DNA of 44,912 nucleotides from a virus. The position numbers and the translations under genes were made by a program. Below are positions 32,511 to 44,912 of this stretch, piece by piece; within the stretch, counting starts at the first letter, position 1; every line of letters starts with the position of its first letter. Location of the stretch: positions 1-44,912 of IMG/VR virus record IMGVR_UViG_3300035388_000087. The stretch is one strand, 5' to 3'. The notes under the pieces are model-generated. The model was not told where the DNA came from. It did not search any database and saw only the letters and a program-made list of their open reading frames with translations.

Positions 32511-33008
32511 CTACATTTCTTCGAGCAATCGAGATGAATACCTGTATAGTGACTCACTCTTGAGGTCATCTTCGGTAATATTGTGTAAACATTTGAATTC
32601 ATTTACTATTTCAATGCGTTGTTTTCCGGCTTTTAAGTTTCGATACAAGTACCTTGAAAATTCAAAGTTAAAATCGATTCTTACTTCTTTGCGAAACTTC
32701 TGTTTTGCTCGTACCGAAAGGTAGTTGTAAGAAAGTATGTTTTTGCGGTCGTTGAAAGGAAGAATAATGCTAACTCCTTTGCCAGTAGTTTCCTGTTTCG
32801 ACATATGGAAAAAATCTAAAACATTTTCGCGGTCCTTAACAGGAATTTCTTTTAGCGAATTGTAATTTGTAACCAAACGGATTAGTAAAATGTTGTAGTC
32901 GTGGCGATTGGGGAAACGGAGTGGGATAACCTTATTTTTCGATTTGCTAATCAAAAATTTCTGGAGATACGATTTAATTTCAATATTTACAGTTACTAAT
33001 GTACTCAT
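32511..33008 (-). CDS. First gene past the control region; candidate late regulator
   Basis: A 165-aa basic protein (many Arg/Lys, NRHDYNILLIRLVTNYNSLK, HMSKQETTGKGVSIILPFND, VRAKQKFRKEVRIDFNFEFS, AGKQRIEIVNEFKCLHN). I recognise no family; no classical HTH is obvious. It stands alone between the GTAC-repeat control region and the late genes, with a perfect -7 element (33025-33032) 17 nt upstream, and no GTCCTTT box. That position suits a middle gene that switches on late promoters, but evidence for DNA binding is only its charge and place. Confidence 0.55.
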   Translation of the reverse strand: MSTLVTVNIEIKSYLQKFLISKSKNKVIPLRFPNRHDYNILLIRLVTNYNSLKEIPVKDRENVLDFFHMSKQETTGKGVSIILPFNDRKNILSYNYLSVRAKQKFRKEVRIDFNFEFSRYLYRNLKAGKQRIEIVNEFKCLHNITEDDLKSESLYRYSSRLLEEM

Positions 33009-33024: not shown

Positions 33025-33032
33025 CAAATATA
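33025..33032 (-). promoter_or_regulatory. -7 element before the 165-aa gene
   Basis: Minus-strand TATATTTG (33032-33025), a perfect consensus, 17 nt upstream of ATG 33008; the -33 region falls inside the GTAC repeats (first copy 33041). Confidence 0.55.
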
Positions 33033-33040
33033 AATAAAAA

Positions 33041-33318
33041 GTACAGTAACTACTATACAATAGGACGGCTTCTACTATACGAAAAAAAGTGTACAGGAGT
33101 ACAAAAGCAAAAATATGCTTGTATTTATCTGTATTAGTGCATTTTGCGCCGTACTTTTTAAGTGAACAAATTTGCCTGAAAAGTACACTTTTCCGTTTAT
33201 TTTGAAAAAATTTGAATTTTCGTACTAAAAGTGTACAATTGTTCATTTGCGTACTAAAGTAGTAGTACGGTTTTAAGTACTGTTTTTCAGTCGGTTATCC
33301 TATGCCGTACACTTGTAC
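33041..33318. repeat. Cluster of twelve GTAC-centred repeats
   Basis: GTAC starts at 33041, 33091, 33099, 33151, 33183, 33222, 33233, 33251, 33265, 33277, 33307 and 33315; about one would be expected in this AT-rich stretch. Larger shared units are AAGTGTAC or its complement, e.g. CGTACTAAAAGTGTAC (33221-33236) and GCCGTACACTTGTACACTTT (33304-33323). Neighbouring copies are often 8-14 bp apart. Operators or replication iterons are the likely roles. No gene is convincing in 33009-33660. Confidence 0.8.
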
Positions 33319-33555
33319 ACTTTTCTCAGTTAACTTTTGATAAGTCTACTTTTAAACAAAAAATTTAAATATAATAAAGATATATATGTATATAACTGAT
33401 AAAGAAGTTTTTATGGGCGAATTTTCGCATGTTCAATTGTTCTAATTATCTCAAAGAAAAAGGGGGCGCGGGGAAAACGCAAAAACAGGGTATTTGATAA
33501 AGGAGTGTGCTTTGCACACGGTAGTTTTATGCTATCGCGAAGTGTAATAAATACC

Positions 33556-44160: not shown

Positions 44161-44703
44161 TTAAATAATCCGTTTTTCAACGGCAAAACGGCAAATACCT
44201 ACTTTGCTCGATGCACCTATTTTTTTCTGAATATTAACCCGGTGTTGGTTGGCAGTATTAACACTAATATTTAATTGGTCAGCAATTTGTTTGTCGGCAA
44301 GGTCGGATGCAATAAGTTTTATTACATCAATTTCGCGCGGAGTGAGATAACCGTTGGTGGCTTGTACATGCTTACAAAGTTTACCTTCTACTATACATTT
44401 GCCTCTTTCTCCACAATCGTAATATTCGTGGTTATGACAGTTTGAAGTTATGTCGGCCTTATCGTCGTAACCTCCAAAACGACATAATCCAAATTTGTGA
44501 ACTCTTTTTTCTTCATCAAATATTTGAAGTTGATCGAGCGAAACTTGAGCAAGTAAATCCTCATCTAATAATGATTGAAGTTGATATTTTGTTTTTGCCT
44601 CGAACTCATTGAAATGTACTAATTCAACTTTTACACGATAAAGTTCGCCATCGATACCAATAAATTCTTTATTGATATTGTTTAGATTCTCAGGGAGTTT
44701 CAT
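44161..44703 (-). CDS. LuxR/GerE-type HTH regulator with Cys-rich motif
   Basis: A 180-aa regulator. C-terminal GerE domain (residues ~118-178): LTPREIDVIKLIASDLADKQ, then IADQLNISVNTANQHRVNIQ, a LuxR-type DNA-binding HTH. A Cys/His-rich centre (Cys74, Cys89, His90, His92, Cys97, Cys103, Cys110; CGERGKCIVEGKLC) is probably metal-binding and is a known layout in Bacteroidota regulators. It lies at the far right of the early region, next to the small HTH gene, with ATGA coupling. Likely controls early or lysis-lysogeny transcription. Confidence 0.8.
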   Translation of the reverse strand: MKLPENLNNINKEFIGIDGELYRVKVELVHFNEFEAKTKYQLQSLLDEDLLAQVSLDQLQIFDEEKRVHKFGLCRFGGYDDKADITSNCHNHEYYDCGERGKCIVEGKLCKHVQATNGYLTPREIDVIKLIASDLADKQIADQLNISVNTANQHRVNIQKKIGASSKVGICRFAVEKRII

Positions 44704-44912
44704 AATGCTTTAATGGTTTTTTCGGTTTCTTCAAGTTCTGTTTGGTAGTCGGCAGCAACTTCAATTGCACAATCAATAATGGTTTGATTATTTCTGGTAC
44801 CAGCCAAAACCATGTTTACATGTGTAAGCGAAAAACCTGTTTTTTCGGAGATCGTTGCACTTCCTTTTTTAGGAAGTTTTTTTCTTAATTTTTTTAGTGC
44901 CGTTTGCGTCAT
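44700..44912 (-). CDS. Small HTH regulator
   Basis: A 70-aa protein: MTQTALKKLRKKLPKKGSAT followed by an HTH (ISEKTGFSLTHVNMVLAGTR) and a helix NNQTIIDCAIEVAADYQTEL. It resembles small Bacteroidota phage repressor-like HTH proteins. It starts at the window's last base, so its promoter is outside. ATGA-coupled to the LuxR-type gene; may be the phage repressor, Cro-like protein or a regulator partner. Confidence 0.65.
   Translation of the reverse strand: MTQTALKKLRKKLPKKGSATISEKTGFSLTHVNMVLAGTRNNQTIIDCAIEVAADYQTELEETEKTIKAL

Follow-up and report, generated by a model that had tools for sequence, protein, structure and literature searches.

The replication origins of PICIs lie downstream of the rep gene or of a fused pri-rep gene, and in these origins two sets of short iterons flank an AT-rich region at which the DNA melts (PMC6092414). 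A self-loading helicase recognizes the iterons of PICIs/SaPIs through its C-terminal domain (PMC7581432), and the P4 alpha protein binds the repeats of its origin with a winged-helix domain (PMC4234260). In the literature searched, whose coverage was partial, we found no description of an origin for the group of Bacteroidota phages considered here. We have analyzed a virus record of 44,912 nt, IMGVR_UViG_3300035388_000087 (the whole of which is referred to as the window), carrying a cluster of GTAC repeats at which replication of this Bacteroidota phage very probably initiates. We regard it as highly likely that this array is a replication origin of the PICI/SaPI type, the repeats being iterons that the phage's own self-loading primase-helicase would bind.

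Results

Gene order of the window

All large genes of the window except that of the integrase are on the minus strand, and they are arranged in the order LuxR-type regulator, HNH protein, primase-helicase, repeat array, and late genes. The early half includes the primase and the LuxR-type regulator, and the late half encodes an S49 protease, the capsid, a probable terminase and portal, the tape measure, and other tail proteins; the location of the array between the two halves, as given in a first-pass annotation of this DNA, is thus seen in the gene order. The 731-aa protein of the capsid region shares 31 to 38% identity with its counterparts in Flavobacterium phage laban6-1, Cellulophaga phage Ingeline, and Flavobacterium phage 6H (family Duneviridae). 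Since an integrase is present, the phage is probably temperate. The integrase frame starts at base 1 of the record (1-1224), and another open frame is cut at the last base (44700-44912); a divergent HTH regulator, the neighbor of the integrase in laban6-1, was not seen in the window, and the record may be without its immunity region. A clear origin signal was not found in the GC skew.

A dense GTAC array adjoins the least stable DNA of the record

Twelve copies of GTAC occur within 278 bp (33041-33318), where 0.64 is expected, and nowhere else in the window do 300 bp contain more than 3. In 150 simulated 45-kb sequences that kept the dinucleotide make-up of the record as a whole, the most GTAC-rich 278 bp contained 2 to 7 copies, mostly 3 or 4. 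The count thus bears out the first-pass annotation, which had reported twelve copies against about one expected. Its further statement that neighboring copies are 8 to 14 bp apart holds only in part, because the spacings run 50, 8, 52, 32, 39, 11, 18, 14, 12, 30, and 8 bp. Likewise, the longer unit that it described, CGTACTAAAAGTGTAC, was found as written only once (33221-33236), and the unit that does recur is AAAAGTGTAC or its reverse complement, GTACACTTTT.

The features of the locus are summarized in Table 1. Read along the genes, that is, from right to left, they come in the order CCCCGCGCCCCC, GAACAATTGAAC, the AT-rich stretch, and the array, which runs from AAAAGTGTACAAGTGTACG to GTAC-8-GTACACTTTT and is followed by the lone GTAC at 33041, TATATTTG, and the 165-aa gene. 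The AAAAGTGTACAAGTGTACG terminal pair is the same in relative L004 and near-identical in L003 and L006, it is aligned in A10, and the end-to-end distance between the terminal pairs is 224 bp in the window and in L003, 225 bp in L006, and 248 bp in L004.

Table 1. Features of the repeat locus and of the genes discussed in the text (positions in the window)
Feature	Position	Strand	Description
165-aa protein	32511..33008	-	First gene past the array
-7 promoter element of late operon (Bacteroidota)	33025..33032	-	TATATTTG, read directly
Main array of putative iterons	33041..33318	.	12 GTAC cores, many as AAAAGTGTAC or GTACACTTTT; kept in L003, L004, L006
GTAC starts	33041, 33091, 33099, 33151, 33183, 33222, 33233, 33251, 33265, 33277, 33307, 33315		
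Opposite terminal pair, GTAC-8-GTAC	33085..33106	-	GTACTCCTGTACACTTTTTT, inverse of the AAAAGTGTACAAGTGTACG pair
Terminal pair adjoining AT-rich stretch	33306..33324	-	AAAAGTGTACAAGTGTACG, two cores 8 bp apart
AT-rich stretch, candidate unwinding element	33335..33414	.	80 bp, 86% A+T
TAGACTTATCAAAA within AT-rich stretch	33335..33348	-	Alignment A10; identical in L013 and L014
Degenerate 8-spaced pair GAACAATTGAAC	33431..33442	-	Far side of AT-rich stretch; GAAC for GTAC
C-rich element CCCCGCGCCCCC	33462..33473	-	Helicase side of AT-rich stretch
Fused primase-helicase, 1014 aa	37546..40590	-	CHC2 zinc-finger primase, predicted D5-type SF3 helicase, variable C-terminal domain

In a nearest-neighbor stability profile, the AT-rich stretch was the least stable 80-mer of the whole record (rank 0). 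Among the relatives sharing the helicase type of the window, a least-stable stretch, ranked 0 or nearly so, was found at the same position in L003, L006, L004, L041, L013, L019, L025, L076, L082, L083, and L084, and the conserved sequence of this stretch is TATATATATTATTTATT...AAAATAGACTT. On its far side, relatives have GTACAAAAGTAC or GTACAACAGTAC at the position of GAACAATTGAAC; the GTAC pairs there are intact in L003 and L006, and that of the window is degenerate. The far-side pair lies 124 bp from the first array core in the window, 125 bp in L003, and about 122 bp in L006. Two iteron sets around an AT-rich region are clear in L003, L006, and L016, and with its GAAC pair at a matching distance the window may likewise possess a second set, as far as sequence comparison can tell. 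Of 27 phages, 17 have CCCC in the 220 bp preceding the array, versus 4.8 expected. The C-rich element has the form CCCC(GCG/GCA)CCCCC followed by T and occupies the same place in relatives.

At the other end, the perfect -7 element noted beside the array in the first-pass annotation was found again, on the minus strand, and the corresponding elements are TATGTTTG in L003, TATCTTTG in L004, and TATTTTTG in L006. The pattern TTGATWWTCA, which was picked after the sequences had been viewed, occurs in or beside most arrays whatever their repeated word: allowing a single mismatch, 21 of the 24 arrays have at least one copy versus 0.1 to 0.4 expected in each. It was noted in the arrays of L041, L013, L017, L019, L025, L084, L085, L038, and L044 and is not in the window. 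This pattern might be the site of a host protein.

Related phages carry arrays of different words

Relatives were collected in several ways. Searching with the 165-aa gene yielded L002/L003, L004, and L006, all with GTAC, and L013/L014, which have the same array plan with GCACGA/TCGTGC in place of GTAC; hence, far from being absent from close relatives, the array is carried by L002/L003, L004, and L006 alike. A structural-protein search brought in prophages of Bacteroidota genomes along with more phages, arrays with differing words emerged from an unbiased k-mer cluster scan, and a search by the helicase half added L076, L082, L083, L084, L085, L088, L090, and L091. A DNA-only scan with AAAGTGTACAAGTGTACG returned L004 and one chance match in L092, an unrelated phage that has no array and in which the match falls within a small gene.

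In total, about 27 related phages have one array each, downstream of the primase-helicase gene, and the repeated word varies, the words including GTAC, GCACGA, GTTACAA, GATTACA, AATACAA, GTTGAGA, AACTACA, GTTCCAAC, and AGTCCA. Beyond the window, GTAC arrays occur in L003, L004, L006, L041, L076, and L083 (GTAC in L076 and GTACTA in L083), GCACGA arrays in L017, L019, and L025, and GCACTA in L082 and L084. The other words are GTTACAA (BT-TP2, L036, and L037), GTTACA (L088 and L090), AATTACA (L091), GATTACA (Leef_1), AATACAA (L031), AACTACA (L034), CGTACAA (MT835542), TCCAACA (a Porphyromonas phage), GTTGAGA (laban6-1 and 6H), AGTCCA (L085), and GTTCCAAC (L015, L016, and, in fewer copies, Ingeline). 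A GTAC array was not found in laban6-1, Ingeline, or 6H, for which the k-mer scan showed other words, and an array was not recognized in L086, L087, L089, and L026, some of these relatives being truncated.

The array of the window lies 4.2 kb downstream of the helicase gene and in the same orientation. In L015, L016, L034, laban6-1, 6H, and L083, it is found directly or shortly downstream of the primase-helicase gene and away from the late operon. Dense repeats were also seen upstream of helicase genes, namely, CTTACC/CCTCACC in L070 (the contig of L015) and CGCCGA/CCTCAG around 780-1000 in L085, upstream of the searched helicase half; these may be coding repeats.

The primase-helicase resembles SaPI5 Rep in predicted fold

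The N-terminal zinc-finger primase of the 1014-aa protein was recognized by Pfam (CHC2, 2e-16). The remainder, residues 450 to 1014, was modeled with AlphaFold2 (16 sequences; pLDDT, 83.5), and Foldseek matched the model to SaPI5 Rep (7om0; E, 3.5e-8; TM, 0.46/0.56) and also to poxvirus D5-type SF3 helicases. The match to the SaPI5 Rep/D5 fold is global and loose (TM of 0.46 to 0.56, with identity near 12%), and searching the PDB sequences with a profile of the helicase found nothing. Among the helicases of relatives, Pfam DUF5906 was detected in 3 of 16 and an RFX DNA-binding model, weakly, in one; matches in a plasmid collection were distant and partial only. The last 110 residues are more variable between phages than the helicase core, which fits a putative specificity domain. 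In the L019 prophage, the primase-helicase (G005:C210:4141-7196) is in three pieces in different frames, resulting either from MAG frameshifts or from decay of the prophage.

The array word tracks the helicase and not the 165-aa protein

Similarity of the array motif was compared with that of the primase-helicase and of the 165-aa protein in the 19 phages having all three features, of which L088 and L091 are weak in family assignment. The motif correlated with helicase similarity (Mantel r = 0.72, p = 0.0002, the p-value being indicative only because array boundaries were hand-set from the k-mer scan and the phages share ancestry), and r was 0.615 with 26 phages. The partial correlation was 0.54 for the C-terminal (helicase) half versus 0.15 for the N-terminal (primase) half. 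By comparison, the 165-aa protein gave r = 0.02 (p = 0.40), or -0.13 with the helicase held fixed, and the controls were uncorrelated with the motif (S49 protease, r = 0.02; 271-aa structural protein, r = -0.05).

The paired dissociations are stronger evidence than the Mantel p-value. The 165-aa proteins of L015/L016 and L017/L025 are 58 to 62% identical, and there the helicase halves are unrelated and the motifs differ; conversely, L013 has the motif and the helicase (55%) in common with L017/L025 at only 28 to 30% identity of the 165-aa protein. The 165-aa proteins of MT835542 and the Porphyromonas phage are 47% identical, and their motifs differ. Grouping of the primase-helicases matches that of the motifs: phages with GTAC/GCAC words have a full-length primase-helicase in common (38 to 80% identity), those with TTACA words have a second type, whose relatedness to the first is confined to the helicase part, and the remaining phages have a third, which is akin to the first in the zinc finger alone. 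Judged by covariation, the iteron sequence appears to be specific to the cognate helicase. It is likely that helicase and iterons evolve together and can be exchanged as one specificity module, which uses at least nine iteron words and has often been swapped relative to the structural genes.

The 165-aa protein had been proposed in the first-pass annotation as a candidate binder of the repeats, a proposal that we rejected, as the motif does not track this protein, judging by the dissociations and the Mantel r of 0.02. Neither Pfam nor PHROG matches were found for it, a scan of genome contigs with its family and tblastn of phage records found no relatives, and its AlphaFold2 model (pLDDT, 84) had no PDB match. 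The single good BFVD match of the model was a 157-aa protein of phage Leef_1, whose gene comes after the array. In many of these phages the family, which has no known domain, sits between the array and the head protease, and for BT-TP2 gp8 the annotation reads transcriptional regulator, with no evidence given.

Discussion

The first-pass annotation had left two possibilities for the array, a regulator operator or an iteron origin, and these data strongly support the latter and disfavor the former. The origin reading is supported because the least stable DNA of the record adjoins the array, the helicase gene lies upstream, and the motif tracks the helicase. If the array were an operator, a late-gene regulator such as the 165-aa protein or the LuxR-type regulator would bind GTAC and switch the late promoter, consistent with the position of the array shortly before a TAnnTTTG late-operon promoter element in the window, L003, L004, L006, and the GCACGA group. 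However, the array follows the helicase gene away from the late operon in the six phages named above, the motif does not track the 165-aa protein, and a dozen sites adjoining the least stable DNA of a genome are unlike a promoter switch, and hence, we consider an operator quite improbable. Even less credible is a cosB- or pac-like packaging site bound by the small terminase subunit: the array does head the late operon and is followed by a small protein, but it is separated by 7.5 kb from the probable large terminase (577 aa; near the portal), and in other phages the array adjoins the helicase gene, whose type the motif follows. Because the array goes with the replication module, we rejected this explanation.

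A second, regulatory role is possible, because in the window 4.2 kb separate the array from the helicase gene and the late promoter comes immediately after the array. The origin array might also silence or time that promoter, for instance, via the bound initiator, which would couple late transcription to replication; such a role is an addition to the origin reading and does not exclude it. In the window, the array site nearest to the -7 element is about 10 bp away from it (33041 versus 33025-33032), and the spacing is kept in L006 (52-8-50-40 versus 52-8-50-39), yet the arrays of many relatives are away from the late promoter, and we put the idea forward only tentatively, as rather doubtful.

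Taking the array as an origin of the PICI/SaPI type, we infer the following course of events. The GTAC repeats would serve as iterons, to which the 1014-aa primase-helicase would bind, most likely via its C-terminal domain. It would assemble over the array and the smaller iteron pair across the AT-rich stretch and melt the stretch between the two sets. The protein would then self-load as a hexameric helicase and prime DNA synthesis.

If this is true, origins in these phages, from gut, oral, and marine sources, can be located simply by the array, and the phages offer natural helicase-iteron pairs for studying how the DNA specificity of an initiator changes. It also bears on the source of PICI replication modules, because whole phages also have an origin plan that was considered exclusive to PICIs.

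Among known systems, iteron plasmids of the Rep_3/RepA_N type are similar in that a repeat array and an AT-rich region form the origin, but their initiators are not helicases, and a Rep protein of this type was not found among the window genes scanned. SCCmec Cch2 is closer, being a D5-type helicase whose C-terminal domain binds 5-nt iterons downstream of its gene (PMC7581432); compared by description, it differs in belonging to another mobile element and in having three iterons versus a dozen in the window. The P4 alpha/ori/crr system is alike, again by description, in combining a bacterial-type primase, a helicase, and a DNA-binding domain for origin repeats (PMC4234260). Residues 450 to 1014 are like SaPI5 Rep (7om0, 7ola) and poxvirus/ASFV D5-type helicases in predicted fold, at about 12% identity. 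As in PICIs/SaPIs, the array is downstream of the primase-helicase gene in the window and six relatives, and the initiator is predicted to be of the SF3/D5 type. In contrast, the primase of the window is of the DnaG type (CHC2), whereas those of SaPIbov1 and SaPI5 are archaeo-eukaryotic (PMC7581432), and the main array here is large, with 10 to 14 cores in about 225 bp, and is several kilobases from the helicase gene in many members. Finally, the window is a complete tailed Bacteroidota phage that encodes capsid, terminase, and tail proteins of its own and to which the PICI trait of dependence on a helper phage for structural proteins does not apply.
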